Source: Membranipora membranacea
Taxonomy: Eukaryota > Bryozoa > Gymnolaemata > Cheilostomatida > Membraniporidae
Assembly (NCBI GenBank): GCA_914767715.1
Contig: OU612067.1
Coordinates: 21,984,162-22,048,161 of the forward strand
DNA: 64,000 nt
Reading direction: 5' to 3'
Every line of letters begins with the position of its first letter. The first letter of the stretch is position 1. The translations under genes and the position numbers were made by a program. The notes below the pieces were generated by a model. The model ran no database searches and was not told where the DNA came from. It saw only the letters and a program-made list of their open reading frames with translations. This document shows positions 15,724-62,347 of the stretch, in pieces.

Positions 15724-16152
15724 TTATGTTGCCTGTGGGTAGCCAAGCTTTCCCATTAGACTCTCCTTAGTATGCTTGGATCTTTGTAGAGAACCTGTAC
15801 TGCTCAAAACAGGAGGAAGAACAAGGTTCTTCTGAAGCGTATTTCGTGATTCTGGAGACTGATCATACTGGTCTCCTTCATTCTTCTTCATGTCAATGAC
15901 AGCATTTGTAACCATATCAAGTATGGTTGTCTTCCCATCAGCTTTAGCAAACTGTCTGGCCATGCCTCCAGTAAAAGCTCCTCTGATAGCCATCTTTCCG
16001 ATCACTGTTGACATCAGTAACAGTGTATGAGGCCTCTTAAGTACAACGTGGTTCATCTCATTAGGATTAGCTGCCTTTGCATCAACATGGCTTTTGGAAT
16101 GTCCAGCTGCTTGTGGAGGGTTGTTATTTTGGCAGGCCTGAATTATGGCAAT
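15724..16152 (-). CDS. gene A exon: caspase catalytic cysteine and p10 domain
   Basis: The exon begins IAIIQACQ, matching the caspase QAC pentapeptide with catalytic Cys (usual form QACRG; here Gln replaces Arg). A Pro/Ala/Lys/His-rich linker of about 30 residues follows. Then comes p10: [20 protein letters not shown], equivalent to the caspase block YSTVPGYxSWR. The Arg that binds the P1 aspartate in caspases is conserved, while the usual Trp is Ile. The tail LVLPP...LMGKLGYP is shared with gene B. Acceptor is TTGTAG|ATTGCC. The 429-bp exon is 142 codons plus stop. Confidence 0.85.
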   Translation of the reverse strand: MAIIQACQNNNPPQAAGHSKSHVDAKAANPNEMNHVVLKRPHTLLLMSTVIGKMAIRGAFTGGMARQFAKADGKTTILDMVTNAVIDMKKNEGDQYDQSPESRNTLQKNLVLPPVLSSTGSLQRSKHTKESLMGKLGYPQAT

Positions 16153-19100
16153 CTACAATGTGTAATATTATTTTGACTGACTACTAGTATTTGGAAAGTA
16201 TGATTTAGTGTGCAACCATAGTTACAATTTTATTTTGTTTGATAGTCAACAGATGGTGGTTCTTCGAATGAGAAGTAATCACATCATCAGCACATGCCAC
16301 ATATTAAACCATTTTCTTGATCTCAGCTCGTTTGCTGCCGTTGAGTATTGAAGAATGAATACATACCATTGGGACTTGTTCAGACAACTTATTATCTAGT
16401 ATCTGTAGAACATCAGTGATGGGCATATAGGAGCCATTGCAGCCATGCAGAATTCCGGCTTTTCCATGGGTCATGATGGAGATGACAAGAAGGGAGATTC
16501 CTTGGGATGGAAGCTCATCGATTCTGTGACGCAGATCTAATGCACTTTTCCATTCTATCTTCTGAGTCTTGCATCCTGCTGTGACTAGGCTTTCAGCCAT
16601 CTTATTAGCTTCATCTTCAGCATCAGGTCTATTCTCAGCGTTGAAAAGCACAAGGCCGTACCTCTTCATGTGATCTTGATGATATGGTATGATGTACTGG
16701 TCACTCTGAACAAATAGTCGATTGATGTCATTAGCGCCTAGTGGATGTTTCTCTATGAGCTCCTTCAGTATCTGTGACTTGTCACCTGAGTAAAATTAGA
16801 ATTCAAGTCAAAGAAATATAGACAACCTGCAGCTTTGCATTCTAGTGTATATATAGCATTTTACAATAGTAGATTTTAATATTTAAATGAGATATATATA
16901 TGATTGTGACATATAAACTCATATTTAAGACGAGTGGTTGTCATCATAAGTATGCATTGATTGATGTACCCAAAAAATATCTCTGCTAGCTGTGTAATTT
17001 GGATACACATTAGAGTCATGTCAGTTTGTACAGAAGATTATAGTTGTAGCACATGACCACTGAAATCAGATATAATGATAATCATAGCACATATATCACT
17101 TGAATCAAATTAGCAGACTTTTGTTAGAGGGCCATAGTTGGCTAGATCAAATTTTGTTCATTTGCTTGATTTTCAAGTTGTTCCCATTCAATGGTCACAC
17201 TGAGATGATCACACATAATATGAATAATGTAATATATAGATGTAATACGAAAACTTATAATGGATAAAAACTGATTAAACATGTATTTAGTTTTATAATT
17301 TTTAATTCAAATTAATTCGGAAACTTACTTGATAAGACAAGCTTTGATAGGTAGTCTTGAAGTTCAGTATGACCAGCCTCTGTTATGCTTGAACCTAAAA
17401 TATTCGCAACATTTCATTGATAATAAAATGAGTTTTCCATGCACACAAAAAGCAGTGTCTGGGAGGGCTGCTGAAGAGGGGGTTCAAGGTAGGTAAGCAG
17501 CCGTAGTGGCTGGAGCACAAGGAGATGCTGCTTCAAGTTCATTTTATTAAAGCAATTTGCCTTTTCCATGTCAATAAAGATACTTTACACTATGATAATA
17601 CCGGTAGGTACGAAAAGCCGAACCACGAACTCACAAACTACGAACCCTCATAAAACCGAACTCTTAAATCAATTTGCTCAAAGTTTACATTGTCAGTGGC
17701 CAATGAAATGTCATGATTTGGATAAGTTACCAATAATATAACAGATATCAAACTTTGACTTTCAATAGAGCTCATTGCAACTTAGCTTGGTGCACAAGCT
17801 CAAGGTCATTTGATTAAAAATTATGGATAGCAAGGTGGTGCACACCAAGCACGATGTCAAATTTGAAATTATTCATGATGAATCCAAATGAACTTTTGCA
17901 TTAGAGAGAGGAATGGTTTGACTATATGTTCCTGCAAGTTTGAAAATGATGGAAGTATTTGGAGCTACTAGAGAAGGCTGTAATGGAGGACAAACCTCAC
18001 TTATTAGAAAAAGAATGGTCACAGCATATATTGGAGTCCCTTGACTTGACTCTTCACTGGAGCACAAGGCTACCTCCTGCATCATCACATCTCAACAGAG
18101 TTAACAAGTATGTTCTATTGGTGTTAGCCTATCTTGAAATATTGTTTTGAATGTTCATGGCTGTTCTTTGGCTTCAAAGCATGAGGGGGAAAGTAGCCTG
18201 ACCTCTGAATATACATTATTATTCTCTTCCATAAAAATTAGGTCATACATACAGCATTTGGTGCTACTCTAAGAGACATCAGATCAGTGTTGCCTCTACA
18301 TTAGCATCATCTCTGAAATGATTCTATGAAAGTGGTTAGGCAAATACTTATATGAACTGCATAGGGCCTATTGCAATGATTAACATAAGAAATCTTGTGT
18401 TTGTAGATATCCATGCGGGCCCTTACTCATCACAACTTCAGCTATTGATTTCTCTTACTCGTACCACAGAATACCAAAAAATGCCTGTTTTCCCTTTAAT
18501 AATATAGTGCGACAATGGGTATTTTGGTTCGATGGTCAGACTCACATGCTGTTCTATAGCTGTGTAACGAAGTCAGGTTCAAGCTGTGGTGGCCCGGACT
18601 AAACTGATAATGATAATATCCTAGTCTTCTGCAACGGCCTCGTGTAATTAAGCTGTAAGTTGGGTCAGGTATGTATCAAAATAAATTGTGTATTATTCAT
18701 TTTATCCCAGCCGAGCATTATTGATATATAATGTGGTGTGAGGTTCACCAGTCACCATCTAGCCATAAAAAAGCGAATGACATTAACCGGCAATGACGAA
18801 ACTGTGAGCATACTCACGCTGCCCTAAAGCTAGGAGTAGAGTGAGGTGAGCAAAAAAGTGAGTTATAAATTTTAATTCATAATAACATGACATATAATAT
18901 CAAACGCTTCTCTTTGGATTCTTATGTGAAACTTTCTGGTTTTTTTTAGTTGCGCAGTACCAGAAGGCAGAAGACACAACACAATCCTCGTGATAGCTGG
19001 TGTGTAAAAGTGATAGCTTGATAGTTAGCTTACTGTCATTAACAACATACATTGCCACTACGATTGGATAGGAACTGCTTTATGTCCCCAATGGTCTACC

Positions 19101-22100
19101 ATCACATGTGTATTCACAGCCACAAATGCTCACACTTCAGTTAAAATCCACCGAGCCATTACTATTCTCTCAGGCCTTGTGTCTGCCTCTCATTTTGCCG
19201 CTATTTCAGCCACCATAATATACAAATAAGTTCATTGAATACACATATAAACACCATCAACAGTCTCTTCTCTGAACCATTACCTTTATTTAAATGCGCA
19301 TATACTATATTATCTGCTTGGATCACCTTATCACTCACATAAACTGAGTATTTGCAAGCATCATTTAATAAGTAAAAGGATCACTGCGAGCGCCACTTGT
19401 GCATAATCACTCAATTTTCCAGGATCAGTCGCACCACCGTGGTAATAATCACTAAGTTTGAACTTGGTGGCTCCCAGCTCTCCGGAACCTCTGTCTCAAT
19501 CTGGAAATCGTTCAAGCCATGATCTTGCCTGGTGTATTTTCTAGAACAAAATCCCTTTCTTTGTTCAGTTGGGGACAAACTACCTGCTCCCCTCCCTCCC
19601 TGTTCCCCTCCCACCCTCCCTGCTGCTACTATGTGCCAAACTCTCTGCTGGGATGGGAGTTGTCACCCTACCATTTGCCTAAGTGCAAGAGAGGATAACC
19701 CTGTTCTTCAAAGTTCCATTTTTGTTACGAAGCATATCATTGGACAAAATTATGTTATCAGACACATTGAAGGTTTGGTTTTTTAAAGGTTCGTAGCTTG
19801 AGAGTTCGTGGTTCGGTTTTTCGTACCTACCGATGATAATACATATTTTTATGACTTTTACATACATGGTTTCATGAGTGGTTGTGGAACAAGTCGGTTC
19901 TCTTTGTTCTGCACTTCCTTTCTGCAGACAAACTTCTCATATCCAGTATAGCTGCGATCTTGCTCTCTAGAACTATCTGGAACTGTCAAATTGTACCAAT
20001 CAGGATCAACAGCTGTTTGTGGGTCCAGTTTGTTAGTGAGCAGGCAGTGAGAACAGTAGAATACACTCTCATAACGAGCTCCTTTCCACACAGATTTGAG
20101 TTCGGTGGTGAGCTTTCTCAGGGTCGAAATCTGCTCTTCTCTTGCTTCACAGAGTCTTTCCTGAGGTGTCAGAGTGATTAGAGTGACACGCTTTTCACCT
20201 GCATTGTGAAGGAGGTGTTCGATTATCCCATTACTCTTGGTCACAGTAGCACCATTCCCACCTGCCTCTGGAAAGTTTGATGGATTAGAATTCATGTCTA
20301 GATAGGCGGCAGTGATGAGGGAGAAGATGTAGCTGGGTATGGGTAGACCGCGTAAATGAAGATCGACCTTCAACGGCATCAGTTGATTGTACACTTCAGG
20401 GGCTGTTATTGTTCGGCTGGCAAAATACGGTACAATGTATTTCTGATTGCTTATTGCAGCATTTGAACCGCAGAGATGCACAAGATGAAATGTTCTTAGG
20501 ATTTCAATGGACACATCGGCAGGGAGTGGGGATTCTTGCTCTAAGAGGTGTAGAAGCAGAGGTGCATCCATCACTCCTGTGTCATTGAATGTGTCTATCA
20601 TCTCTTTGTATCTGCTCTTTTCTATGGTTTTTCCGTCAACAAGAGAGAATGGAATAAATTTATCTAGCCTTTTGTACCAGGATTCCTCCAGTGTGTGGTT
20701 GTATAGGACTTCTATCACACTTGTTATGACTTTTGAGCGATGGAATATAAAGTTTGATAGCTTGTCTAGTCTCCTGAACCACATTATTTGACTTATTTCA
20801 TGAAGATACTCGAGAGTGACATGTCCTTTATCATCAGGAAATTCTTTCTCTATTTCAGACAGGGTGAGCATGGGCTTGTCAGAGTGTTGGACTAGCTTCT
20901 GTAGCATTCGATACCAGCTACCGGGAATCTCAGTGATTAATCCTGCACCAGCTGCTATGATAGCATCTTTCAGCTTGTCGATTTCAGGCTGTCCGGATGT
21001 CTTCGAGAAGTGATGGATGTCACAAGACCTTATCAGGACTTCTGAGGTGTTGGCGAAGCTGGTCATGGTAAAGATCGGGTTAGTGTCATTTTTCAAGTTC
21101 TGATTGACATTATTTTCTGCTTGGATTATACGTTGGCGCAATTTCTCAGTGACTTTGAGTAGTTGATGAGTCGTCTGTTTAACCTTATCAGGTATACTGT
21201 CACAGTGAGTGAGGACTACTACAGGTCTCTTCAGTTGAGGACACGCAATGTAGAGGTGGGATAACCACTCAATACAAAGCTCTTGACAGGCAGATTCCTC
21301 ACCTTTCTCTGAAGCTAATCTATCAAACTCAGCAATGTCTATCACTAGCAGCGGCACACATTTTCTCTTAAAAGTCAGTCTATATGAAAATTGATAGATC
21401 TTCTGGCCTCCGAAGTCAGTAAAGAGTATTTTTGATTTCTCATCAGCGTCCGCCTCGCTCATTTCAAACACTTTAGTGGCAGCGTCCAATTTCCCCTCAT
21501 CAGAATGGCGTTGTGTCAGCACCCTTTTGTTTGCTTGCACACTGTTAACAAGGCTTGTTTTACCAGCTCTGCTTTTCCCTATAACTGTGACAGGTATAAG
21601 TCTCTGATTACTGGCTTTCTCAATATGGAGGTCATGAATGTACTTTCTCACAGCTTCTACACCTTGCGTACAAACACCTAGTGGTGGAGATGTTAGAGAA
21701 TCACAGTTATCACACTCTACTTTTTTTAATGTTGTGATACTGAATAAGCTCTCGGGGATGGTTGTGAGAGATCTGTTAGACGCGATATCCAAAGACTCCA
21801 GATTAATCAGCTGGCCGATGCTGCAAAAGAACAGAAGATAAAGTGTATTGTGTGAGAAGGTAAAATTGGTCATCTGGTAATCATCTTATTCAGAGGGGAT
21901 AATGCTGGGAAAAGAGGGATGTGGCAAAGTGTAGAGGATTTTGAGGGGGGTTAGCCTAAGGCGGCGATACCCTCCACTGCAACCACGCACATTGCCTATT
22001 TATACTGAGTACGCCGACTCTCAAAACGAGTACGCCGACTCTATCTGCCTGGAAATATACCGAGTACGACGACTCTATCTGCCTGGAAATATACCGAGTA

Positions 22101-37288: not shown

Positions 37289-37457
37289 GCGTGCGGTATC
37301 ACGTGCCAGCGGCAAGAAAATTGGGCTTATGATTGAGAATAAGAGATGGTCGATGGTACAACACTTGGTAAATCTTGTTGGCATAGTGGAATGAGTGGTT
37401 TGTAGTCGGAGATACATTTTCGGAAAAAAATTGAGAAGACAACTCGGTATATCTATA

Positions 37458-37631
37458 GAGTTGCGACATTTGTGACGCTAGTGGGTTCGAGCATTTGCAA
37501 CGTTTAAAAATGTGCGATGTTTGTCGGTTTCCGACGTTATAAAAACCCTTCGTTCCGCCGTTTTTGGGATTGTGACATTATTGGAATGCTAGATTGTGAC
37601 GTTTTGACGTTTGCGACGTTTGTGGGTTCAA
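37458..37631 (+). repeat. GTCGCAA-rich interspersed repeat, inverted copy
   Basis: The same family as 34845-35020 but in opposite orientation: GAGTTGCGACATTTGTGACG at the left end, TTTGCGACGTTTGTGGGTTC at the right. Confidence 0.7.
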
Positions 37632-37869
37632 CACTCCTTCAACAGGAAGGGGTTAACTCCATACAAAATGAACTTGAGCAAAAACAAATGAAAGAGGGAT
37701 GCTTTTCTGCTTGGGTGTCTGACCTCAAGTGGGTCGAATATCTGACAATTTGTTATATCACACCCTCAAGCAAGAAAGTACTTCAAGTGTGCACATAAAT
37801 AAAGGTGAGTTGTGGTGGGAGGCGGGGGTGACAAGACACAATGAAATCAGTTCTGTGAAGAAGGAGACA

Positions 37870-42583: not shown

Positions 42584-42647
42584 GTGCGGATTTTATAATC
42601 TTCTTTTAAAACATCAATTGACAATTTCGATCGATTTAGGAGTGGGA

Positions 42648-44550: not shown

Positions 44551-44613
44551 CAGGGCATAACCCTCCATCTGATTGCAAGGCAGACACTTAGACCACTACA
44601 CCACACTACCTTA
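44551..44613 (-). repeat. tRNA-derived SINE-like segment
   Basis: On the minus strand GGTGTAGTGGTCTAAGTGTC (box A) is followed by GGGTTATGCCC (degenerate box B). It resembles the segment at 4881-4940 in its GGTGTAGTGGT core. Confidence 0.45.
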
Positions 44614-47318: not shown

Positions 47319-47362
47319 GAATAATATGAGCTGACTCGATATCAAGTCAGCTCATATTATTC
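47319..47362. repeat. perfect 18-bp inverted repeat with 8-bp loop
   Basis: GAATAATATGAGCTGACT is followed after eight bases by its exact complement. It lies about 440 bp beyond the gene B stop codon. No run of T follows, so a role in RNA 3'-end formation is not supported. Confidence 0.6.
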
Positions 47363-47797
47363 ATATTATGCTTTCTATTGTGGAAAACGACTTGGAAATG
47401 TGGGAATAAGATCTTATACAATATCCGAGAGCAGATGTTAATATATCATCATACAAAGCAGATGTGCTCTGATCACTAATCCAAATAAGTAGGTTTAAAG
47501 TGAAATCTGTTAAAATATATTAACAAAAGCTAAAAAATCAATTCGATTTTTTTTCCCATACATTAATGGTATTCCTTCTCTCTTGAACTTATTCCTAACT
47601 GCTTGAGCTCTGTTCGTTGTGCGTGTGCAGATAATGATTCTAAACTGGTTTCTTTCATTAAACCCAATATTCTGTTGCATACTGTACACCATTTCACATA
47701 ATGATAAAGAGTACAGATAGAGTAAAGATAAACAGTATACTACAAAAGATGTACAGATCATTAGACCGACCCTCGCATAGTTTTAGATAGTCAGTCT

Positions 47798-48238
47798 TCA
47801 TTTTAGCTTTGGTAAGCCGAGCTTCTCCATGAGGCACTGCTTTGAAAACATGTTTTGGTTTTGTTGAAGATCTGATTTAGGCGCTGCAGGGGGAAGCACA
47901 AGACATTTCTTGAGTGTGCTTCTTGTTTCTGATGTTTGGAACTTGCTGTCTGGCTTACGATCCATAGCTATTTTGGCAAACGTTACCATTTCATCTATGG
48001 TTTTCTTCCCATCGGCCAGAGCAAACTGGCTGGCTATGGCTCCCGTGAAGGCACCTCTATGAGACATCCCTCCAGCTACTGTTGACATGAGTAACAGAGT
48101 ATGAGGCCTCTCTAGCTCTACATGACGCTTTTCAGCTGTGTTTGCATCACCAGCATCTTTCTTCTGTCCTTGAGCATCTCTCTGCTGTCTTTGAGCACCA
48201 GCTTGAGAATGCGCTTGACAAGCCTGAATTATTAGAAT
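47798..48238 (-). CDS. gene B exon: caspase catalytic cysteine and p10 domain
   Basis: It begins [16 protein letters not shown] (catalytic Cys in QAC). A Gln/Lys/Asp-rich linker ([20 protein letters not shown]) of about 30 residues follows, then p10: [20 protein letters not shown]. The Arg equivalent to the P1-Asp-binding residue of the caspase SWR motif is kept, with His in place of Trp. The tail LVLPPAA...LMEKLGLPK matches gene A. The charged linker is where caspases are normally cleaved between subunits. Confidence 0.85.
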   Translation of the reverse strand: MLIIQACQAHSQAGAQRQQRDAQGQKKDAGDANTAEKRHVELERPHTLLLMSTVAGGMSHRGAFTGAIASQFALADGKKTIDEMVTFAKIAMDRKPDSKFQTSETRSTLKKCLVLPPAAPKSDLQQNQNMFSKQCLMEKLGLPKLK

Positions 48239-51200
48239 CTGCAAAATCAACAAAATGAGCTAAATGTGACATACTATACAGGCACCAGTGATGGTAACTA
48301 TGAAGAACTAGCTCCTAATAATTGCTAATAAACAAAGTTATCATACAGCTGTACAATAAAAACCTACAATCCAATGTGTGGATCGTGATTTGATCATCTC
48401 AACAAGAACATGAATAAATGCTGTCGGTGTGGCTAATAAAATCAATGAAATGTATGAATGTTTGCCTTGGTTGCATCATAATGCATCATCAGGCTCATCT
48501 TTTCCACTGTTATTGTGTGAATAATGATCTGAGTTTGTCGTATATCACAAATGTAGCATTGTTGTTCATGGTGAACTCAATTCGTTAGGTCTCACAATCT
48601 CACCAGGGGGATCCGTTCAGGAAGTAGTTCTGCCAGCAACTCCAGCAATTCAGTAATAGACATCATGCAGTTGTTGTTTCCTATCAACGAACCAGCTGTA
48701 CCATGTGACATGACAGACATAACAAGTAGTGACAGACCTTGCCTAACCAATGATGGGAGGCTGGAACGGATTTCGCGAAAAAGATCATATTCTTTCCATT
48801 TCGTTGTCTCTGTCACAAATCCAGATTTGTCAAGGCTCTCCTTCATAATACGAGCTTCTTCCTCAGCCCCTTCCCTGTTCACAGAGTTGAACATCACTAA
48901 TCCACATCTCTTTACATTAGTTTGCTGGTATGGGATGATATACTGATCACTGAGATCAAACAGACGGTTGATGTCGTCTATGTTGAGTGGATGCTTCTCT
49001 ATGAGTTCCTTCAGTATTTGCTGTTCGCCTTAACGAAAGAAAATTGAAAAATTCTATATTGAAATGCAGGAGAGAGGAAGTGACTTATATTAATTGATAA
49101 GTCACTATTAGGTATCGGAAACATATTCATGTAATTTTAGATTTTGCATTGATTAAGCTCGCTGGTTTCATTCTAGGTGGTCTTCGACGAAGAAACCTGG
49201 GTTTAACAAATGTGGGGTTTATCAAACACGTTCATCCGTTGCATTTCAAGATAACATTTGAAGATAACAGATGCTATAAGGTTTTAAGTTTCTGAATGAT
49301 GAGCTTACTTGATATAATCTTTAGCTTTGAGATATAGTCTTCTAGCACTTCATGACCTGTCTTGTCTATGCTTGAATCTGAAATATTGAACAAGATGTTT
49401 TACCTGACACCAACCTTCAGTCCGATTGCATCAGAAAACAGAGAGAGGTTAGGACAAGATGAATATGTTTGCTAACTCTCCCAAAAAATGGTCAGGCTTT
49501 TGAATAGTAAATTAGTTACGATAAAACAATTACACTTAGATAACGTCATAGACTTATTAATAAAGCTTGACAGGACACTATATATAGCTGAAGTGTGGCA
49601 CTTAATTGTGGGGCAACGTAACGTAATTTGTAATTCTTTACTAATTTATTATGAACTTTTATTAACCACCGATCAATGCGTGAAGCAAATAAGACCATGT
49701 GAAAACAAAAAACAAAAGAAAAAATAAGAAGGCATTGATGTATTGGCGTATAAATTATTCACAAATACTTTCGTACTAATAGGGATTCCCCTGATTTCGT
49801 GAAATGTTGGATGTTAACGATGCAAGTAACCGAATCGCGTAGACTTTCACAAACTGTTATCTGATTGGCTGTCAGATTTGAATGATTGGCTGTTTGTTTT
49901 GATTGATAAGTCAAGGCCATATCTATGTAAACAACTTTGGTTAAAAAGATGCAATGGTTGATCAATATGTTGAGTGTCTCATTGATTTGGACCTGGAGCA
50001 AGAGGGAGAAGGGATGCAATGACTAATGGGGTATCAAATTGAATAAATATGAGGAGATAGTTGAGCCTAAGCATATCCAGAAGCTGAATCACTGGGCTGG
50101 TTGGTATAATAAACAAGGAGAAACAGCTTCTCCTTGGTTTAATTTTTTCTTTATAATTTTTTTCTATCACTGTAGGCCTATGATTGAGACTGGCTGAGGA
50201 GGATTACAGAAGGATAACACCCATAAATCATTAGTAAGAATTTGGGAAATGACAATCATGAGTGCCAGGCTGATATTCGTACAAAATTTATTTTGCAAGA
50301 ATTGGTGGAAATTTGCACGAGCATGTGGCCTCTGCTTTAATGACAAGCTGCTAACTCTATTGTTATTCTCAATGTCCGATTAAAATTGATCAAGTGATCA
50401 ACAAAAAGCCTGGATTTTAGACAGTAAATCAATGATAGCATCTTTGCTTCTACCTTCCAATGCCTCAATGCTGATGCCCCCATAGAGTGTGCTGTCTAGG
50501 TATATTATTAAGTCTATTGATAACGTACACTTTGTCATTGTGGGATTGCCTAGCAGACAACAAATTCTTCAATGAAACAGTTTACTTACATGGATACATG
50601 AGCAGTTTCGGCACACAACGACGGTTCTTATCAACTTCCCTACTGCACACATAGGTTTCCTCACCAGTATAGCAAACATTGTCTGCCTCTGTTGTTTTGA
50701 ACCAAGAAGGATCAACTGCTTTAGCCGGATTCATATTGTTTGCCAGTAGGCAGTGAGAACAATACAATATACTCTCATACCGTATCCCTTTCCACACAGA
50801 CTCAAGTTCCTCTGTGAGCTGTCGAAGAGTGGTAAGCTGCATATGCCATGCCTCACAGATCTTTTTCTGGGGAGTGAGTGTTATTAAGGTGACCCTGCAT
50901 TCTTTTGATTCATGGAGTAGATGCTGAATGATCCCGTTACCAGTAGTGATTGAAGCACCATTTGTGCCCACCTCAGGAAAGCTTGAAAGGTGTGAGTTAA
51001 TACCCAAGTAAGAAGCAGTAATGAGAGAGAAGACATATCCAGGTACAGGAAGACCGCGAAGTAATAGATCTATCTTCAACGGGATGAGCTGTCCAAATAC
51101 CGAAGGTGCTACTACCATTCGAGTGGCAAAATAAGGAATGATGTATTTCTGATTGCTTATTGCAGCAGTTGAACCACATAGATGTACAAGGTGGAATGTT

Positions 51201-54200
51201 CTTAGGATTTCGATGGATACATCAACAGGGAGTTTGGATTCTTGCTCTAAGAGGTGTCGAAGCAGAGGTGCGTCCATCACTCCTGTTTCTTTGAATGTGT
51301 CTATCATCTCTTTGTATCTGCTCTTTTCTATGGTTTTTCCATCAATGGGAAATGGAATAAATTCATCTAGCCTTTTGTTCCAGGATTCCTCCAGTGTGTG
51401 GTTGTATAGGACTTCTATCACACTTGTTATGACTTTTGAGCGATGGAATATAAAGTTTGATAGATTGTCTTGTCTCCTGAACCACATTATTTGACTTATT
51501 TCATGAAGATACTCGAGAGTGACATGTCCTTTATCATCAGGAAATTCTGTCTCTATTTCAGACAGGGTGAGCATGGGCTTGTCAGAGTGTTGGACTAGCT
51601 TCTGTAGTATTCGATACCAGCTACCGGGAATCTCAGTGATTAATCCTGCACCAGCTGCTATGATAGCATTTTTCAGCTTGTCGATTTCAGGCTGTCCGGA
51701 TGTCTTCGAGAAGTGATGGATGTCACAAGGCCTTATCAGGACTTCTGAGGTGTTGGCGAAGCTGGTCATGGTGAAGATCGGGTTAGAGTCATTGTTCAAG
51801 TTCTGATTGACATTATTTTCTGCTTGGATGATACGTTGGCGCAATTTCTCAGTGACTTTGAGCAGTTGATGAGTCGTCTGTTCAACCTTATCAGGTATAC
51901 TGTCACAGTGAGTGAGGACTACTACAGGTCTCTTCAGTTGAGGACACGCAATGTAGAGGTGGGATAACCACTCAATACAAAGCTCTTGGCAGGCAGATTC
52001 CTCACCTTTCTCTGAAGCTAATCTATCAAACTCAGCAATGTCTATCACTAGCAGCGGCACACAGTTTCTTTTAAAAGACAGTCTATAGGAAAAGTGATGG
52101 ATCTTCTGGCCTCCGAAGTCAGTAAAGAGTATTTTTGATTTCTCATCAGCGTCTGCCTCGCTCATTTCAAAGACTTTAGTGGCAGCATCCAATTTCCCCT
52201 CATCAGAATCGCGTTGTGTCAGCACCCTTTTGTTTGCTTGCACACTGTTAACAAGGCTTGTTTTACCAGCTCTGCTTTTCCCTATGACTGTGACAGGTAT
52301 AAGTCTCTGATTACTGGCTTTCTCAATATGGAGGTCATGAATGTACTTTCTCACAGCTTCTACACCTTGCGTACAGACACCTAGTGGTGGAGATGTTAGC
52401 GAACCACAGTTATCACACTCTACTTCTTTTAATGTTGTGATACTGAATAAGCTCTCGGGGATGGTTGTGAGAGATCTGTTATTCCTGATATCCAAAGACC
52501 ACAGATTAATCAGCTGGCTGATGCTGCAAAAGAACAGAAGATAAAGTGTATTGCGTGAGAACGTAAAAGTGGTCATCTGGTAAGTATCTTCTTCAGAGGG
52601 GATAATGCTGGGAAGAGAGGGATTTGGCAAAGTATGCTGAATCGTTGGCCAAGTAGAACCTTCCTACAACTTCTTTATAGAAATAAAGGTGAATTGGATA
52701 TAAGGTCCTTGAGTAAGACTAACAATGAGACGAAAACTCACTGTCGCGACTTAAAATAAATCATGGTGGTAATGACTTATTCAAACTTATATTCAAATTT
52801 TATCATAAATAAGCTGCATACTTGTAATGTATAAATTACCCACCTTTCTGGTAATGTTGATAGATCACAGTATGACACATCTAAGACCTTCAATGACCTC
52901 ATCATACCAATACTATCAGGTAATGTGTGTAGATTCTTATTACCTGATACATTTAACTTCTCTAGATCTGTCAGTGAGCCGATACTATAATATATATATA
53001 AAGATAAGTAAGACTAACAATGAGAAGAAAACTCACTGTCACCATAGGCGTATTTAATCTGTCTGGTCAACTCTCTAACAAAAATAGCCCCGCGCAGCGG
53101 AAAAATTTTTTTCATGAGACAAGCATCTGTTAGAGACTCTAACAAATTTGTTAGAGTCTCTAACAAATTGTTAGAGTAGAGAATATTGACTTTGTTTCTA
53201 GAGCATCTGAGGCCTAAACCACCATCCATTCACAAATCTTTAGCAGTGGGCCTGCTGGGATTGTGATTGGATCTTTGGCTTGAGGTGGTGGTGGTTTGGA
53301 CCTCATCTATTCTCAAGAATATCTAACCACCCCAAGCCTCAGATCCACTCAAGGATTTTTCAGTGAAGCTTGTGAGTGGATCGGAGGCTTGTGGTGGTGG
53401 TTTTGGCCTCAGCTATTTCAGCATGTGATTGGATCTTTGGCTTGAGTTGAGGTGGTGGTCTGGCTCGGCCACAGCTACGCTTTAGAATGTCTGACTTGAC
53501 TTGAGGCCCTAAGGCTGCCAACAAGCTTCAGGTTCACTCACAAATCTTTTGCAGAATTCAGTCATGGGTATCTGAGAGATCAGACATAGTACACATTTCA
53601 AAAGCCCATTATCAACTCATTGGTTGGGTGGTTGATAAGAATCCGTGACAACTCGAAAATGCAATTTCAAAAATCAAACCACAAACACCATTTTTGAAAT
53701 GAACATTTTCGAAGTGTCCGTATACCGGTTGAAAGTAGACTTTTGCAATATGTTGTGTACTATGTCTGATCCAGCAGGTGCCCATGATGACTGCAGTGGG
53801 TCTGACTCTGAAGCTGTGTTGTGACCATGATTGATAGCTATGACTATGATGGCCAAGTGGTGGTTCTGTGGGGTTCTGTTGACAGTCTCAATCAATCAAC
53901 ACAACAATAAAAATCAATGAATCAACAACAAGCAATCAATCAACCACCAACCATCATCATCAATAATGAAATGATGATCATGATGATGATGATGAAAAAA
54001 AGACAGGTGTGCTTGCTTTGCTTTGTTGCTAAATATGCATATTGATGAGAGGATTGGAGGGATGAAAGTTAAGGGACTTTCTGGGTAACATGAGGAAGTT
54101 TTTAGGGAGAAAAGATTTGCTCTATCTGCATTTTCCTGTAACTTCGTTGCATCCCAAAGTATTAATTAAGATGACCTTGGAATGTCAATAGACAACAAAA

Positions 54201-57200
54201 AGTCTACTGGTTTCATATCAAAATTTTACTTCTATGTCCAGTGACAAAGAGAGGACAACTAATAATAATAACAGAAAAAGAAGACAATTCCTCATTACTT
54301 GATTCGAGGGTGGAACATTTTTCCCAACACTCTAACCATCCTTGCCTCTAACATTCGAGAGTTCGAGATAGTTAAATACGCCTATGCTGTCACAACTTAA
54401 AATAAATCATGGTGGTAATGACTTATTCAAACTTATATTCCAATTTTTTCATAAATAAGCTGCATACTTATAATGTATAAATTACCCACCTCTCTGGTAA
54501 TGCTGATAGATCACAGTACCATACAGTTAAACTCTTTAATGACCTCATCATACCTATACTATCAGGTAATGTGTGTAGATTCTTATTACCTAACACATCT
54601 AACGTCTCTAGAGCAGTCAGTGAGCCGATACTATAATATATATAAAGATAAATAAGACTAACGATGAGAAAATAACTCATTGTCACATATTAAAATAAAT
54701 CATGGTGGTAATGACTTATTTTAAACTTTAATTTAAATTTCATCATAAATAAGCTGCATACTTATAATAGATAAATTACCCACCTTTCTGGTAATGCTGA
54801 TAGATCACAGCCTGACACATTTAGGGTCTTCAATGACCTCATCATACCAATACTATCAGGTAATGTGTGTAGATTCTTATTCTCTGACACATCTAACGTC
54901 TCTAGAGCAGTCAGTGAGCCGATACTATAATATATATAAAGATAAGTAAGACTAACAATGAGACGAAAACTCACTGTCGCAACTTAAAATAAATCATGGT
55001 GGTAATGACTTATTCAAACTTATATTCCAATTTTATCATAAATAAGCTGCATACTTATAATGTATAAATTACCCACCTTTCTGGTAATGCTGATAGATCA
55101 CAGCCTGACACATTTAGGGTCTTCAATGACCTCATCATACCAATACTATCAGGTAATGTGTGTAGATTCTTATTACCGTACACATTTAACGTCTCTAGAG
55201 CTGTCAGTGAGCCGATACTATAATATATATAAAGATAAGTAAGACTAACAATGAGAAGATAACTCATTGTCACATATTAAAATAAATCATGGTGGTAATG
55301 ACTTATTCAAACTTATATTCCAATTTTATCATAAATAAGCTGCATACTTATAATGGATAAATTACCCACCTCTCTGGTAATGCTGATAGATTACAGTTTG
55401 ACACAACTAAGACCTTCAATGACCTCATCATACCAATACTATCAGGTAATGTGTGTAGATTCTTATTACCTAACACATCTAACGTCTCTAGAGCAGTCAG
55501 TGAGCCGATACTATAATATATATAAAGATAAGTAAGACTAACAATGAGAAGATAACTCATTGTCACATATTAAAATAAATCATGGTGGTAATGACTTATT
55601 CAAACTTATATTCCAATTTTATCATAAATAAGCTGCATACTTATAATGGATAAATTACCCACCTTTCTGGTAATGCTGATAGATCACAGTATGACACATC
55701 TAAGACCTTCAGTGACCTCACCATACCTATACTATCAGGTAATGTGTGTAGATTCTTATTACCGTACACATTTAACGTCTCTAGAGCTGTCAGTGAGCCG
55801 ATACTATAATATATATAAAGATAAGTAAGACTAACAATGAGAAGATAACTCATTGTCACAACTTAAAATAAATCATGGTGGTAATGACTTATTCAAACTT
55901 ATATTCCAATTTTATCATAAATAAGCTGCATACTTATAATGGATAAATTACCCACCTTTCTGGTAATGCTGATAGATCACAGTGCCGCACAGTTAAACTC
56001 TTCAATGACCTCATCATACCAATACTATCAGGTAATGTGTGTAGATTCTTATTACCTGATACATTTAACTTCTCTAGATCTGTCAGTGAGCCGATACTAT
56101 AATATATATATAAAGATCAGTAAGACTAACAATGAGAAGATAACTCACTGTCACAACTTAAAATAAATCATGGTGGTAATGACTTATTCAAACTTATATT
56201 CCAATTTTATCATAAATAAGCTGCATACTTATAATGTATAAATTACCCACCTCTCTGGTAATGCTGATAGATCACAGTGCCGCACAGTTAAACTCTTCAA
56301 TGACCTCATCATACCAATACTATCAGGTAATGTGTGTAGATTCTTATTACCTGATACATTTAACTTCTCTAGATCTGTCAGTGAGCCGATACTATAATAT
56401 ATATATAAAGATCAGTAAGACTAACAATGAGAAGATAACTCACTGTCACAACTTAAAATAAATCATGGTGGTAATGACTTATTCAAACTTATATTCCAAT
56501 TTTATCATAAATAAGCTGCATACTTATAATGTATAAATTACCCACCTCTCTGGTAATGCTGATAGATCACAGTACAGCACAGTTAAACTCTTTAATGACC
56601 TCATCATACCTATACTATCAGGTAATGTGTGTAGATTCTTATTACCTGATACATTTAACTTCTCTAGATCTGTCAGTGAGCCGGTACTATAATATATATA
56701 TAAAGATCAGTAAGACTAACAATGAGAAGATAACTCACTGTCACAACTTAAAATAAATCATGGTGGTAATGACTTATTCAAACTTATATTCCAATTTTAT
56801 CATAAATAAGCTGCATACTTATAATGTATAAATTACCCACCTCTCTGGTAATGCTGATAGATCACAGTACAGCACAGTTAAACTCTTTAATGACCTCATC
56901 ATACCTATACTATCTGGTAATGTGTGTAGATTCTCATTATATGACACATCTAACGTCTCTAGAGCAGTCAGTGAGCCGATACTATAATATATATAAAGAT
57001 AAGTAAGACTAACGATGAGAAGAAAACTCACTGTCGCAACTTAAAATAAATCATGGTGGTAATGACTTATTCAAACTTATATTCAAATTTTATCATAAAT
57101 AAGCTGCATACTTATAATAGATAAATTACCCACCTTTCTGGTAATGCTGATAGATCACAGCGCCCCACAGTTAAACTCTTCAATGACCTCATCATACCTA

Positions 57201-60200
57201 TACTATCAGGTAATGTGTGTAGATTCTTATTACCTGATACATTTAACTTCTCTAGATCTGTCAGTGAGCCGATACTATAATATGTATAAAGATTAGTAAG
57301 ACTAACAATGAGACGAAAACTCACTGTCGCAACTTAAAATAAATCATGGTGGTAATGACTTATTCAAACTTATATTCAAATTTTATCATAAATAAGCTGC
57401 ATACTTGTAATGTATAAATTACCCACCTTTCTGGTAATGTTGATAGATCACAGTATGACACATCTAAGACCTTCAATGACCTCATCATACCAATACTATC
57501 AGGTAATGTGTGTAGATTCATATGACCTGACACATTTAACGTCTCTAGAGCAGTCAGTGAGCCGATACTATAATATATATATAAAGATAAGTAAGACTAA
57601 CAATGAGAAGAAAACTCACTGTCGCAACTTAAAATAAATCATGGTGGTAATGACTTATTCAAACTTATATTCAAATTTTATCATAAGTAAGCTGCATACT
57701 TATAATGTATAAATTACCCACCTTTCTGGTAATGTTGATAGATCACAGTCTGACATATATAAGACCTTCAATGACCTCATCATACCTATACTATCAGGTA
57801 ATGTGTGTAGATTCTCAATAGCGGACATATCTAACCTCTCTAGAGCTGTCAATGAGCCGATACTATAATATATATAAAGATAAGTAAGACTAACAATTAG
57901 AAGAAAACTCACTGTTGCAACTCAAAATAAATCATGGTGGTAATGACTTATTCAAACTTTAATTTAAATTTCATCATAAATAAGCTGCATACTTATAATG
58001 GATAAATGACCCACCTTTCTGGTAATGTTGATAGATCACAGCCTGACACAACTAAGACCTTCAATGACCTCATCATGCCAATACTATCAGGTAATGTGTG
58101 TAGATTCTTATTCTCTGACACATCTAACGTCTCTAGAGCAGTCAGTGAGCCGATACTATAATATAAAAAGATAAGTAAGACTAACAATGAGAAGATAACT
58201 CACTGTCGCAACTTAAAATAAATCATGGTGGTAATGACTTATTCAAACTTTTATTCAATTTTATCATAAATAAGCTGCATACTTATAATGTATAAATTAC
58301 CCACCTTTCTGGTAATGCTGATAGATCACAGTATGACACACCTAAGACCTTCAATGACCTCATCATACCAATACTATCAGGTAATGTGTGTAGATTCTCA
58401 ATAGCGGACATATCTAACCTCTCTAGAGCAGTTAGTGAGCCGATACTATAATAATAAAGATAAGTAAGACTAACAATGAGAAGATAACTCACTGTCGCAA
58501 CTTAAAATAAATCATGGTGGTAATGACTTATTCAAACTTATATTCAAATTTTATCATAAATAAGCTGCATACTTGTAATGTATAAATTACCCACCTTTCT
58601 GGTAATGTTGATAGATCACAGTATGACACATCTAAGACCTTCAATGACCTCATCATACCAATACTATCAGGTAATGTGTGTAGATTCTTATTACCTGATA
58701 CAGTTAACTTCTCTAGATCTGTCAGTGAGCCGATACTATAATTTATATATAAAGATAAGTAAGACTAACAATGAGAAGAAAACTCACTGTCGCAACTTAA
58801 AATAAATCATGGTGGTAATGACTTATTCAAACTTATATTCAAATTTTATCATAAGTAAGCTGCATACTTATAATGTATAAATTACCCACCTTTCTGGTAA
58901 TGTTGATAGATCACAGTCTGACATATATAAGACCTTCAATGACCTCATCATACCTATACTATCAGGTAATGTGTGTAGATTCTCAATAGCGGACATATCT
59001 AACCTCTCTAGAGCTGTCAATGAGCCGATACTATAATATATATATAAAGATAAGTAAGACTAACAATGAGAAGAAAACTCACTGTCGCAACTTAAAATAA
59101 ATCATGGTGGTAATGACTTATTCAAACTTATATTCAAATTTTATCATAAGTAAGCTGCATACTTATAATGTATAAATTACCCACCTTTCTGGTAATGTTG
59201 ATAGATCACAGTATGACACATCTAAGACCTTCAATGACCTCATCATACCAATACTATCAGGTAATGTGTGTAGATTCATATTACCTGACACATTTAACGT
59301 CTCTAGAGCAGTCAGTGAGCCGATACTATAATATATATATAAAGATAAGTAAGACTAACAATGAGAAGAAAACTCACTGTCGCAACTTAAAATAAATCAT
59401 GGTGGTAATGACTTATTCAAACTTATATTCAAATTTTATCATAAGTAAGCTGCATACTTATAATGTATAAATTACCCACCTTTCTGGTAATGTTGATAGA
59501 TCACAGTCTGACATATATAAGACCTTCAATGACCTCATCATACCTATACTATCAGGTAATGTGTGTAGATTCTCAATAGCGGACATATCAAACCTCTCTA
59601 GATCTGTCAGTGAGCCGATACTATAATATATATAAAGATAAGTAAGACTAACAATTAGAAGAAAACTCACTGTTGCAACTCAAAATAAATCATGGTGGTA
59701 ATGACTTATTCAAACTTTAATTTAAATTTCATCATAAATAAGCTGCATACTTATAATGGATAAATGACCCGCCTTTCTGGTAATGTTGATAGATCACAGC
59801 CTGACACAACTAAGACCTTCAGTGACCTCATCATGCCAATACTATCAGGTAATGTGTGTAGATTCTTATTCTCTGACACATCTAACGTCTCTAGAGCAGT
59901 CAGTGAGCCGATACTATAATATATAAAGATAAGTAAGACTAACAATGGGAAGATAACTCACTGTCGCAACTTAAAATAAATCATGGTGGTAATGACTTAT
60001 TCAAACTTATATTCCAATTTTATCATAAATAAGCTGCATACTTATAATGTATAAATTACCCACCTTTCTGGTAATGCTGATAGATCACAGTATGACACAC
60101 CTAAGACATTCAATGACCTCATCATACCAATACTATCAGGTAATGTGTGTAGATTCTTATTACCTAACACATCTAACGTCTCTAGAGCAGTTAGTGAGCC

Positions 60201-62347
60201 GATACTATAATAATAAAGATAAGTAAGACTAACAATGGGAAGATAACTCACTGTCGCAACTTAAAATAAATCATGGTGGTAATGACTTATTCAAACTTAT
60301 ATTCAAATTTTATCATAAATAAGCTGCATACTTGTAATGTATAAATTACCCACCTTTCTGGTAATGTTGATAGATCACAGTATGACACATCTAAGACCTT
60401 CAATGACCTCATCATACCAATACTATCAGGTAATGTGTGTAGATTCTTATTATCTGACACATCTAACTTCTCTAGATCTGTCAGTGAGCCGATACTATAA
60501 TATATATATAAAGATAAGTAAGACTAACAATGAGAAGAAAACTCACTGTCGCAACTTAAAATAAATCATGGTGGTAATGACTTATTCAAACTTATATTCA
60601 AATTTTATCATAAGTAAGCTGCATACTTATAATGTATAAATTACCCACCTTTCTGGTAATGTTGATAGACCACAGCGTGACACATTTAGGGTCTTCAATG
60701 ACCTCATCATACATATACCATCTGGTAATGTATGTAGATTCTTATTATCTGACACATCTAACGTCTCTAGAGCAGTTAGTGAGCCGATACTATAATAATA
60801 AAGATAAGTAAGACTAACAATGAGAAGATAACTCACTGTCGCAACTTAAAATAAATCATGGTGGTAATGACTTATTCAAACTTATATTCCAATTTTATCA
60901 TAAATAAGCTGCATACATATAATGTATAAATTACCCACCTTTCTGGTAATGCTGACAGATCACAGTATGACACACCTAAGACCTTCAATGACCTCATCAT
61001 ACATATACTATCAGGTAATGTGTGTAGATTCTTACTATTTGACACATTTAACTTCTCTAGAGCTGTCAGTGAGCAAAGACTGTAATATACAAAAATAAAG
61101 GTGAGGGTAACTATTAGAATATATCTCATAATCACAATTTATATTAAATTATCCCTTCTTCACTTACGGTGTGCAGAAAAAATGCAAAGCTTAGAGGCCA
61201 GAGAGCAGTGCGCATTCTATGAAATCAATACACAAAACAAATATCGCACCACGAGTAGTGTGCTCATGTCAGAGCACAGCAGCACTTTGTGAAAACAAAG
61301 CGAACGTTGAGTAAGTGTGGTCATGTCAGTGAGTGCAGAGTTAATTTTGGAAAATAAGCTTTATAAATATCGACAAGATATTATCTTATAATGGGAATAA
61401 TCACTTGTCAGTGCCGGGCGAAATAAATATAAATATCGATATTCATTTCCCGAATGAAATATCTGCATCGAGTACATCGAACCAAGGAGTTAAAGAAAAG
61501 GAGATGCAACAAAGACAGCTTCCTTGATTTTGATGAACTACCCTAATTTAAACAACTATAAAGCTTAACTTCAGAGTTTTCTCCGCTTGTAAGGAAGAGA
61601 AACAATTACCGACAGTGTGAAATTATGACATAAATAATAGTGCCGGATACATTGTGAGAGATTATCTCAGTATTTGGAATTTTGAGTTGATAAAACAGCT
61701 AGTGGAAAATTGGTCAAGAGTGAGGCGGTGTAATGGTTCAGTGACTTCAAGACACAGCTGTCAGATCCGCAACCATGGAGGCTCGCACCAAATGTCAGAT
61801 TCTAGCCAAAGACTCCTATAAAACTCGGACACTTTATCACACAATACTTATGCAAGGCATAATGAGTTTGTCGTTGACGGTATCCATACATTTTCCAAAT
61901 TTCAATTTCCCAGCAAGCCCTCTTCTCATCTCTTGTTATCCCAGCGAGACATTTCCCATCAGGATGTTGCTCGCTATTTCAACAAGACATTTTCCCACTA
62001 ACCCTTATCCCACTATTACTTCTTTCAAAGGTCGAGCCTTCAACTCAATGCTGGTAGCTCTTCTAATTTTATAGTTATGTTTGATGTGAGACTACCCCAC
62101 AAACCAAATGCTTACAAAAATACCTACCTCTGTAGCTGATCTTTGTCGGAGATCCTCTTTAGCCTGAGAGCTCTCAGATTAGGTACCAGCTGATCTAGAT
62201 TAGGAGGGATCTCGCCGCGAATAACCATGTGTGAGATCTGACGGTCACAGGTAGCCGCTTCAAGTTCTGATAAGGTCATGGATCTGAACTCTTTATCTTT
62301 TATGTTATCAATTCCAGGCATTACCATACCGTACCATACTCTGTAAA
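47798..62347 (-). CDS. gene B: LRR-Roc-COR-caspase receptor-protease, tandem paralogue of gene A
   Basis: Recognised exons: 62347-62128 (LRR cap), twenty-four 141-bp LRR exons between 61079 and 52844, 52523-50590 (last LRRs, Roc, COR), 49377-49309 (linker), 49028-48604 (caspase p20), 48238-47798 (Cys, p10, stop). All junction phases equal those of gene A. The recognised product is about 2,150 residues, longer than A only because of nine more array exons. The receptor half is nearly identical to A, while the end of COR and the caspase are clearly diverged. Same inferred role: an intracellular sensor with its own caspase. The array is interrupted once by an intronic transposon that leaves the exons intact. 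Confidence 0.85.
48604..49028 (-). CDS. gene B exon: caspase p20 domain with catalytic His
   Basis: It opens [20 protein letters not shown], then [20 protein letters not shown] and [16 protein letters not shown] with the catalytic His-Gly in its usual caspase setting (SHG). It ends ERIPL|GTGAGA in phase 0. It corresponds exon for exon to 16367-16785 of gene A, with clear but incomplete identity. Confidence 0.85.
49309..49377 (-). CDS. gene B linker exon between COR and caspase
   Basis: 69 bp, phase 1 on both sides, TTTCAG|ATTCAAG to TATCAA|GTAAGC. It reads [20 protein letters not shown], alignable to the gene A linker, one codon longer. Confidence 0.75.
49378..50589. other. gene B intron between linker and Roc-COR exons
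   Basis: 1,212 bp with no transposon recognised, in contrast to gene A, where the MULE occupies this intron. The frames 49488-49727 and 49759-50019 show no family signature. Confidence 0.4.
50590..52523 (-). CDS. gene B exon: terminal LRRs, Roc GTPase and COR domain
   Basis: A 1,934-bp exon, phase 2 at the start ([19 protein letters not shown]) and phase 1 at the end (CCAT|GTAAGT). Same motifs as gene [16 protein letters not shown] (P-loop), [15 protein letters not shown], then COR with [12 protein letters not shown] and [15 protein letters not shown]. The first roughly 440 residues are almost identical to A. From about [19 protein letters not shown] on, the two proteins fall to roughly two-thirds identity. 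The final Cys-containing segment ([11 protein letters not shown]) is conserved. Confidence 0.9.
52524..52843. other. gene B intron between Roc-COR exon and LRR array, with empty LTR-element site
   Basis: 320 bp. Near 52626-52639 it reads GGCAAAGTATGCTG, the uninterrupted form of the target of the retrotransposon found in gene A. Confidence 0.7.
52844..61079 (-). CDS. gene B LRR exon array: 24 exons of 141 bp
   Basis: Exons (low-high): 52844-52984, 54490-54630, 54784-54924, 55077-55217, 55370-55510, 55663-55803, 55956-56096, 56251-56391, 56546-56686, 56841-56981, 57134-57274, 57427-57567, 57722-57862, 58015-58155, 58305-58445, 58595-58735, 58890-59030, 59185-59325, 59480-59620, 59773-59913, 60064-60204, 60354-60494, 60649-60789, 60939-61079. 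Each is phase 2 to phase 2 with 47 codons, as in gene A. No stop or frameshift was seen. Several exons carry DLEKL for ALETL (52844, 55956, 56251, 56546, 57134, 58595, 60354). Four carry the variant AIENLHTL (57722, 58305, 58890, 59480). The 5'-most exon (60939) starts SLCSLTALE and has the same distinct upstream intron as in A. Confidence 0.9.
53043..54386. mobile_element. 1,344-bp inverted-repeat transposon inside the gene B LRR array
   Basis: Terminal repeats CATAGGCGTATTTAA (53043) and its exact complement (ending 54386), flanked by a 7-bp duplication CTGTCAC (53036-53042 and 54387-54393). Undamaged array introns read ACTCACTGTCACAACTT, which confirms the insertion point. Internal TTAGAGACTCTAACAAATTT palindromes lie near 53128-53177. 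An ATG microsatellite lies near 53960-53995. No transposase. Superfamily uncertain; the ends recall the hAT-type GGCGTATATT copies. Confidence 0.8.
57427..60494. repeat. higher-order duplication of five to six LRR units in the gene B array
   Basis: Exons 57427, 57722, 58015, 58305 and 58595 recur as 59185, 59480, 59773, 60064 and 60354 at a constant offset of 1,758-1,759 bp (six units). The matching covers unit-specific variants: AIENL with [15 protein letters not shown] with [18 protein letters not shown]. Confidence 0.75.
61080..62127. other. gene B intron between LRR array and N-terminal cap exon
   Basis: Close counterpart of 32812-33830 of gene A, with small indels (for example about 30 extra bases near 61870-61900). 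No element or exon was recognised. Confidence 0.5.
62128..62347 (-). CDS. gene B N-terminal LRR cap exon
   Basis: It encodes [39 protein letters not shown] and SDKDQLQ, joined in phase 2 (CAGAG|GTAGGT) to SLCSLTALE. It is one codon longer than in gene A (IKDKEF against IKQEF). Acceptor TTTCTAG| at 62347 gives the same phase 1 as A; a second possible acceptor (TTTACAG) lies 7 bp inside. Confidence 0.75.

Follow-up and report, generated by a model that had tools for sequence, protein, structure and literature searches.

Two adjacent genes of Membranipora membranacea predicted to join an LRR array, a Roc GTPase and a caspase in one polypeptide

The window analyzed in this work is a 64,000-nt stretch of Membranipora membranacea DNA (GCA_914767715.1, contig OU612067.1, positions 21,984,162 to 22,048,161). 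It contains two adjacent genes on the minus strand, which extend from their proposed ATG codons over 15724-34027 (gene 1) and 47798-62327 (gene 2). According to gene models predicted from sequence only, they comprise 20 and 29 coding exons and encode proteins of 1,726 and 2,150 aa, respectively. Both genes have the same exon order. A short N-terminal part is followed by the LRR exons, a single exon for Roc-COR, a linker exon and two exons for the caspase. In each gene the predicted exons form one continuous reading frame that is closed by a single terminal stop, and the 47 predicted introns (19 in gene 1 and 28 in gene 2) all end in AG and, with one exception, start with GT (46/47), the GC donor belonging to the intron after the gene 2 LRR exon 59773-59913. 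The sequence-only reading of this locus, which combined LRRs, Roc, COR and a two-exon caspase in minus-strand exons with junctions in phase, is thus confirmed in its anatomy, COR being weakly supported. The motifs it named are also present: both genes have THCD in their long exon, and MTHG/MSHG and QAC in the caspase exons. A pseudogene was rejected, with no in-frame stops and no frame breaks across the 49 predicted coding exons.

The first coding exon of gene 1 (33831..34027, minus strand, from the proposed ATG; donor GTAGGT) lies N-terminal to the LRR array and is kept in gene 2 with Ks 0.07 (62128..62327, minus strand, counted from its own proposed ATG, though the exon may start at 62347). 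An acceptor-like TTTTTCTAG suggests that in gene 1 this exon may start at 34047. In gene 1, a region of promoter-like DNA together with the first exon and first intron that follow it (32841..35689, minus strand) has 90.8% identity to positions 61109-64000 at gene 2, a match that reaches the end of the window, and TATAAA is found at 34300 (gene 1) and 62600 (gene 2).

The LRR array of gene 1 has 15 exons of 141 nt (28565..32811, minus strand), each with 47 codons for two LRRs and in a common phase, and that of gene 2 has 24 exons of 141 nt (52844..61079, minus strand). These 39 symmetric exons are arranged in tandem exon-intron units of ~293 bp and encode about 30 (gene 1) or 48 (gene 2) LRRs; the last intron of the gene 2 array is ~1.35 kb longer than the other array introns. 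Most units are ~90% or more identical to one another, introns included, and the nearest relative of an LRR exon is in the same gene in 33/39 cases. The LRR exons diversify at the concave face. With a site set taken from the LxxLxLxxNxL rule and fixed before the comparison with PMC11378527 but after the variability table was seen, so that the test is not blind, pN/pS is 1.60 at concave-face sites (bootstrap 95% 1.33-2.02) and 0.24 at other sites. The most variable positions are 3, 5, 7 and 8 of LxxLxLxxN, and change at concave residues is ~5x the array intron distance of 0.062. In six pairs of units with <=4 differences in 304 flanking intron bases the exons differ at 3 to 14 bases, and in one of these pairs 0/3 exon differences fall at a concave site. 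NCBIfam matches all stayed below threshold and were of a generic GTPase or LRR kind; two of them, located at the LRR end, are to models of LRR-bearing plant-pathogen effectors and were taken as LRR similarity.

The Roc-COR exon carries the Roc domain with its nucleotide motifs and a COR-like region, in gene 1 together with the last LRR, and is located at 19866..21820 in gene 1 (donor T/GTATGT) and 50590..52523 in gene 2 (donor T/GTAAGT), both on the minus strand and with phase 1. The HMMER/Pfam check suggested in the sequence-only reading places Roc just over the cut-off of 27 bits in both genes (29.8 and 27.5 bits), and the Roc part matches four Roco chains in PDB (8e-9 to 1.4e-6). Alignment by hhalign to a profile of 71 bacterial Rocos gave 98.65% and E 4.9e-16. 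Three weak and concordant signs point to a COR-A region: i) a Pfam COR-A match below the cut-off, listed for gene 2 only (E 0.021); ii) weak second-domain scores against the 71 bacterial Rocos (7.2 and 4.6 bits); and iii) the extent of the hhalign alignment, which runs on through the COR-A region to column 409. Neither Pfam nor hhalign matched COR-B, for which the genes have a conserved stretch of fitting length. A COR-like region after Roc is thus weakly indicated by sequence comparison. Relatives of the window's Roc-COR were found neither in the scanned GTDB genomes nor in the scanned viral contigs, and tblastn against phages gave no match, whereas tblastn against plasmids returned two cyanobacterial COR-domain proteins at 27% identity (L001 and L002). 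With these two alone hhalign covered LRR and Roc, not COR, and a viral scan with L001 found no relative. PADLOC found nothing. An AlphaFold model of the Roc-COR exon from two-sequence input had pLDDT 31 and was not used.

The caspase is encoded on the minus strand by a p20 exon (16367..16785 with MTHG in gene 1, 48604..49028 with MSHG in gene 2) and a p10 exon that includes the stop (15724..16152 and 47798..48238, respectively). In the same check, the joined exons of both genes score 54.6 bits with Peptidase_C14 (PF00656), covering positions 15-232 and 13-231 of the 233-position profile, while the four pieces scored singly reach 20.2-27.2 bits. The PDB matches are distant (best E 4.5e-5), and all returned rows are named caspases, none of them meta- or paracaspases. 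The catalytic His and Cys motifs are represented by THG and QAC in gene 1, both aligned to caspase-8 and caspase-2 chains, and by SHG and QAC in gene 2. A p10 Arg that aligns with an Arg of the caspase-8 chains is kept in both genes, as is a p20 Arg at a position outside the PDB alignments; the two are candidates for the arginines of the P1-Asp pocket of caspases. In the aligned caspase-8 chains QACQ is followed by Gly, a residue that QACQN/QACQA does not have. As judged from these matches, the predicted domain is an animal-type caspase with full p20-p10. Chance domains were ruled out by the joined caspase score and paralogue conservation, and bacterial contamination by the introns and the caspase type.

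Comparison of the two paralogues reveals a mosaic. Near-identity is seen in the promoter-like DNA, the first exon, Roc and the greater part of COR, and there is a sharp break inside the Roc-COR exon at codon 460 (20434, corresponding to 51140 in gene 2, minus strand; log-likelihood gain 146.5), with exon identity of 95.8% before and 65.3% after this point. In the effector half Ks is 0.87-2.06, and Ka/Ks is 0.17-0.30 for late COR, p20 (0.19) and p10 (0.30), and 0.40 on the 21 codons of the linker. By this measure the effector ends are old paralogues, and the linkage between Roc-COR and caspase would therefore have outlived a long divergence.

The linker exons (17329..17394, 66 nt, in gene 1 and a similar exon at 49309..49377, 69 nt, in gene 2, minus strand) have no in-frame ATG. 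Over the initial 38 codons compared in the p20 exon, the last being the first Met of gene 1, the proteins agree at 27/38 positions with pN/pS 0.23, while in shifted frames of the same stretch the agreement is 14/32 and 14/31, with six stops in either frame. Taken from the junction phases, the conservation of start-codon-less stretches and the joined-domain score, the single-gene reading is well supported. We favor, at a probability of roughly 0.62, the interpretation that the product of each gene is a single receptor-protease of the Roco class, acting inside the cell, with sensor, switch and caspase in one polypeptide. For the one-polypeptide, inflammasome-like device proposed earlier, this means that the single gene stands, while the roles of sensor, GTPase and protease are a reasonable reading strengthened by the diversifying concave face.

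In the proposed mechanism, an unliganded LRR horseshoe would hold the Roc-COR core closed, and binding of a changing ligand, such as a pathogen product or a damage signal, would lead Roc to change its nucleotide state. A COR-linked change in oligomeric state may then bring the caspase domains together as dimers. These would process themselves at the Asp-bearing linker between p20 and p10 and subsequently cut their targets, so that the cell dies or gives an inflammatory-type signal with no CARD, DED or PYD adaptor involved. GTP makes the bacterial model CtRoco monomeric (PMC11052575, excerpted text), and a simple scheme in which GTP dimerises the caspase may therefore be backwards.

The receptor-protease interpretation has to be weighed against several others. 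The fusion could be real and the caspase inactive or regulatory, as in cFLIP; the distance of the solved caspases and the missing Gly after QACQ would fit, but both old paralogues retain the His-Gly, QAC and p10 Arg at the p20 and p10 Ka/Ks given above, and we regard this as unlikely, though the likeliest of the alternatives. It is somewhat less probable that the LRR arrays reflect ordinary turnover by unequal crossover without immune meaning, with a fixed internal ligand being sensed. Such turnover is favored by the high identity of most units and predicts the nearest relatives in the same gene, but it does not account for change that is concentrated at concave residues with pN/pS >1 and exceeds the intron distance, nor for the exon differences in all six pairs with near-identical introns, one of which has none at concave sites.

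Improbable, in our estimate, is a tandem duplication of two genes, an MFHAS1-like LRR-Roc-COR gene that ends two codons past the COR donor and a separate downstream caspase. If the Roc-COR/linker intron is retained, a stop is indeed reached at this same place in both copies, and the intron holds five polyA-like hexamers in each; another hexamer lies at 15654, after the gene 1 p10 stop, and none was found in ~800 nt after the gene 2 stop. A caspase-less product is therefore possible, and this shorter form could be made alongside the fusion. Against two genes stand the consensus donors that persist in both paralogues within the strongly diverged part, the ATG-less linkers, the p20-exon start conserved ahead of any Met, and phases that match at all three downstream junctions. 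Acquisition of the whole gene from a bacterium that already had LRR-Roc-COR-caspase is very improbable: bacteria are reported to have proteins of this layout (PMC8195603, excerpted text), but the genes have 47 introns, their PDB matches are caspases only, and no Peptidase_C14 was found in the bacterial sample described below. An extension of the preferred reading that we consider a long shot is a generated repertoire, in which a store of in-frame, mutually exchangeable LRR exons would be renewed through crossover and gene conversion and perhaps spliced cell-specifically, each combination being wired through the GTPase to a killing protease, such that cells differ in their death receptors.

In one similarity-ranked sample of bacterial Rocos (loci L003-L082), of which 70 tails were scanned, the C-terminal place of the caspase is taken by TIR in 23/70 and by a CHAT peptidase, of caspase-like fold, in 10/70, and Peptidase_C14 is matched at E 0.001 in 0/70. 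The excerpted text of PMC8195603 describes bacterial LRR-AP-GTPase(Roc)-COR proteins with C-terminal TIR, caspase and other domains. They share with the window genes, where COR is weak, the domain order and effector position, and the earlier claim of an undescribed domain order was thus too strong. These systems are prokaryotic and without an exon-array sensor, in contrast to the intron-rich genes found here. For an animal ROCO-caspase, no description was found among the matches listed in open-access literature text.

NLR inflammasomes and the apoptosome combine an intracellular sensor, an NTPase and a caspase by a like logic, but use NACHT or NB-ARC and a caspase recruited via CARD, DED or PYD, versus Roc-COR and a fused caspase here. 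With E values up to 1 admitted, Pfam showed no NACHT, NB-ARC, CARD, DED, PYD or Death domain in the scanned parts of both genes, which include the first exon and LRRs of gene 1 in part, not those of gene 2, HMMER filters dropping most matches above 0.1. Peptidases of IPR009003, an entry relevant to brown-algal ROCOs, are trypsin-like. In the excerpted text of PMC11378527, this is the peptidase of brown-algal group 3 and no caspase is reported; as here, these candidate immune receptors have diversifying arrays of tandem symmetric LRR exons with selection at the concave face, and their sites 14, 16, 18 and 19 correspond, by spacing only, to positions 3, 5, 7 and 8 of LxxLxLxxN. Their LRR exons are of 72 bp with one LRR each, whereas those described here are of 141 bp with two. 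The same source counts up to forty combinations of domains among animal ROCOs. Sea-anemone NG1 is an animal LRR-Roc-COR protein with a fused immune effector, and its COR is also low-threshold, but that effector is TIR (PMC5094078, excerpted text). MFHAS1 (LRR-Roc-COR), LRRK1/2 and DAPK1 have the Roc-COR core in common with the window genes, but kinase, death domain or nothing more beside it, with no protease named in the excerpted text of PMC6337361.

Bacteria have similar layouts, and the genes described here look like an animal all-in-one intracellular alarm. If expressed as predicted, they would provide a natural case of sensor, GTPase switch and caspase on a single chain in an animal, and would unite themes described apart, namely the effector-swapping Rocos of bacteria, the LRR-Roc-COR-TIR proteins of sea anemones, and the ROCOs of brown algae with diversifying LRR exons. 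With them it would be possible to study directly how an enzyme fused to Roc-COR is controlled by the Roc-COR cycle, which is under discussion for LRRK2 as well. Finally, the combination of a near-identical sensor and switch with an old effector suggests how evolution may refresh recognition while the output stays fixed.

The two long minus-strand genes of the 64-kb window (GC 38%) share one exon order: a first exon of ~66 codons, 15 (gene 1) or 24 (gene 2) arrayed LRR exons of 141 nt, a ~1.95-kb exon carrying the last LRR, the Roc domain and the COR region (19866..21820 and 50590..52523), a linker exon (66 and 69 nt, respectively), and the p20 and p10 exons of a caspase. Gene 1 is predicted to start at position 34027 (proposed ATG) and to end with the stop at 15724 (1,726 aa), and gene 2 to start at 62327 (proposed ATG) and to end with the stop at 47798 (2,150 aa). 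All 47 introns end in AG and 46 start with GT; the single GC donor, at gene 2 LRR exon 59773-59913, may cause weak splicing or skipping of this exon, with the frame kept if it is skipped. The 19-residue Kyte-Doolittle mean, for which the usual cut-off is 1.6, reaches at most 1.24 in gene 1 and slightly exceeds the cut-off in gene 2 (1.68), within the caspase immediately ahead of QAC. Elsewhere in the window, matches below the Pfam cut-off suggest that the open frame 2680-2982 (plus strand) is probably a copine exon (E 1.2e-4) and that 10322-10558 (minus strand) probably belongs to an aldo/keto reductase gene (E 1e-4).

The LRR-Roc-COR-caspase architecture proposed by the sequence-only reading is upheld for the Roc and caspase domains and is weakly supported for COR. 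The separate caspase exons score 20.2-27.2 bits against PF00656; HMMER on the joined p20 and p10 exons confirmed the caspase with 54.6 bits in each gene, covering nearly the whole profile. Three PDB searches returned named caspases in 9/9, 36/36 and 38/38 rows, the 36 including two ancestral reconstructions and one engineered caspase-2; to our knowledge, true caspases are animal proteins, and this caspase type, together with the introns, is the basis for assigning the genes to an animal. CARD, DED, PYD, Death and NACHT had no Pfam match with E up to 1 in a scan covering gene 1, its first exon and LRRs in part, and the gene 2 exons from Roc-COR onward. An Asp-Ala pair between p20 and p10, aligned in both genes, is a plausible self-cleavage site.

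Roc narrowly passes the Pfam cut-off of 27 bits in both genes (29.8 and 27.5). A PDB search with a two-sequence profile gave five rows, four of them on the Roc part (3dpu, 6hlu, 8r4b and 4wnr, labelled 'Rab family protein' or 'Leucine-rich-repeat protein'), which we take to be Chlorobium and Methanosarcina Roco, and a fifth for an LRR protein (E 0.049). Against a bacterial Roco profile built from 71 of 80 fetched sequences, scores were 45.9-48.8 bits for the Roc part, falling to 4.6 and 7.2 bits for the COR region. The hhalign comparison gave 98.65% over columns 7-409, extending through COR-A. Pfam COR-A stayed below cut-off in gene 2 (E 0.021) and was not listed for gene 1, and COR-B was recovered in neither Roc-COR exon by Pfam or hhalign. 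Given a Roc above cut-off with Roco structures among its matches, and sub-threshold COR scores, we regard the Roc identity as secure and COR as weak.

The claim that each gene forms one set of in-phase minus-strand exons was borne out, as intron phases agree between the genes at all three downstream junctions and each frame has one terminal stop only. Ahead of any Met, the start of the p20 exon has 27 of 38 compared residues identical (pN/pS 0.23; the 38th codon, the first Met of gene 1, is a mismatch), and two shifted frames give 14/32 and 14/31 with six stops each. Downstream sequence has diverged strongly between the genes (Ks 0.87-2.06) at low Ka/Ks (late COR 0.17 and 0.20, p20 0.19, p10 0.30, linker 0.40 over 21 codons), so exon order and phase have been maintained over a long time. 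No in-frame ATG was found in either linker exon. Phases, p20 start conservation and long-kept linkage thus favor one gene over two. Evidence against a single gene comes from the Roc-COR/linker intron, which if retained would bring in a stop two codons past the donor in both genes, and which holds five polyA-like hexamers per gene; none occurs within ~800 nt 3' of the gene 2 stop. Together these features make a shorter, caspase-less isoform possible beside the favored single-gene product.

Each of the 39 LRR exons has 141 nt and is symmetric, so skipping any one would leave the frame intact; 36 of them encode distinct peptides. Variation falls chiefly at positions 3, 5, 7 and 8 of LxxLxLxxN, and less so at 10. 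At these positions, which make up ten sites per unit on the concave face of the LRR horseshoe, pN is 0.330 and pS 0.207 (ratio 1.60, with 1.33-2.02 on bootstrapping the units), against 0.033 and 0.134 (ratio 0.24) across the 36 remaining tested sites; the distance between intron interiors is 0.062 (36 introns). Drawing ten sites at random 20,000 times never gave a pN as high as the observed one, in a test that is not blind because the sites, taken from the LRR rule, were picked after the variability table was seen. Exon and flanking-intron divergence are uncorrelated (Spearman -0.02, 561 pairs; 0.10, p 0.015, for non-concave exon differences alone), and six exon pairs with at most 4 flank differences carry 3-14 exon base differences, 0-10 of them concave. 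This pattern fits LRR exons being shuffled or selected apart from their introns. The final array intron of gene 2 holds ~1.35 kb of extra sequence with simple repeats (52985-54489).

Gene 1 and gene 2 are nearly identical in their first exon and in codons 1-400 of the Roc-COR exon (Ks 0.04-0.07; the few changes give Ka/Ks of 0.27-1.35), and upstream DNA, first exon and first intron match at 90.8% over 2.9 kb, up to the window end. A likelihood change point falls within the Roc-COR exon at codon 460 (20434 in gene 1, 51140 in gene 2), with 95.8% identity 5' and 65.3% 3' of the break. On the simplest reading, recent gene conversion or unequal crossover would have copied promoter, sensor and switch between old paralogues, leaving the effector ends apart. 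A TTGCGACGTT-motif repeat lies in the shared DNA 5' of both genes (34741-35106 and 63045-63344) and, reversed, at 37432-37633. In gene 1, the intron that separates the LRR array from the Roc-COR exon holds an LTR-retrotransposon-like element, recognized by eye (21930-27773; TG...CA ends, CTTT duplication, purine tract), with a 3' LTR of ~1.19 kb, a 5' LTR of ~2.63 kb enlarged by a ~34 bp satellite, and no ORF of at least 120 aa in its ~2 kb internal part; the empty site lies near 52650 in gene 2.

The domain order had been thought undescribed. This does not hold for bacteria, where 24 or more domains, including caspase and TIR, occur at the C-terminus of LRR-AP-GTPase-COR proteins (PMC8195603; Roco groups and further bacterial contexts in PMC6337361 and PMC7159879); for animals, a text search of the open-access literature found no description of a ROCO-caspase. 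Scanning genomes with two Rocos from cyanobacterial plasmids gave at least 535 relatives. Among the 80 best, which were retained, 70 had a C-terminal tail of at least 60 aa past the matched part, and 10 were dropped. In these 70 tails, TIR_2 was found in 23, CHAT in 10 and Peptidase_C14 in none at E 0.001. A CHAT peptidase domain ends the Roc-COR proteins at L033 (a Desulfonema assembly) and at six cyanobacterial loci (L042, L043, L044, L065, L073, where a contig edge falls before the LRRs, and L081). Such proteins are a prokaryotic parallel of the Roc-COR-caspase fusion. Sea anemones have LRR-Roc-COR proteins with TIR (PMC5094078), whereas the genes described here carry a caspase. Brown-algal ROCO candidate immune receptors likewise have tandem arrays of symmetric LRR exons, of 72 bp and one LRR each, with diversifying selection on the concave side; the same paper gives up to forty ROCO domain combinations for animals (PMC11378527). 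A sponge NLR protein figure lists CASc and COR as domains, and does not state there that they co-occur in one protein (PMC12909245).

Anatomy, conservation and diversification are established from the sequence. In the proposed mechanism, the LRRs would bind a ligand, Roc would switch nucleotide state, a COR-linked shift in oligomeric state would follow, and the caspase domains would dimerize and then self-cleave. Since GTP leads to monomerization of CtRoco (PMC11052575), the active state may, by analogy, result from the opening of an existing dimer and not from dimer formation by GTP. We conclude that the gene pair is real and probably functional, a predicted Roco receptor that combines a diversifying exon-array sensor with a built-in caspase.
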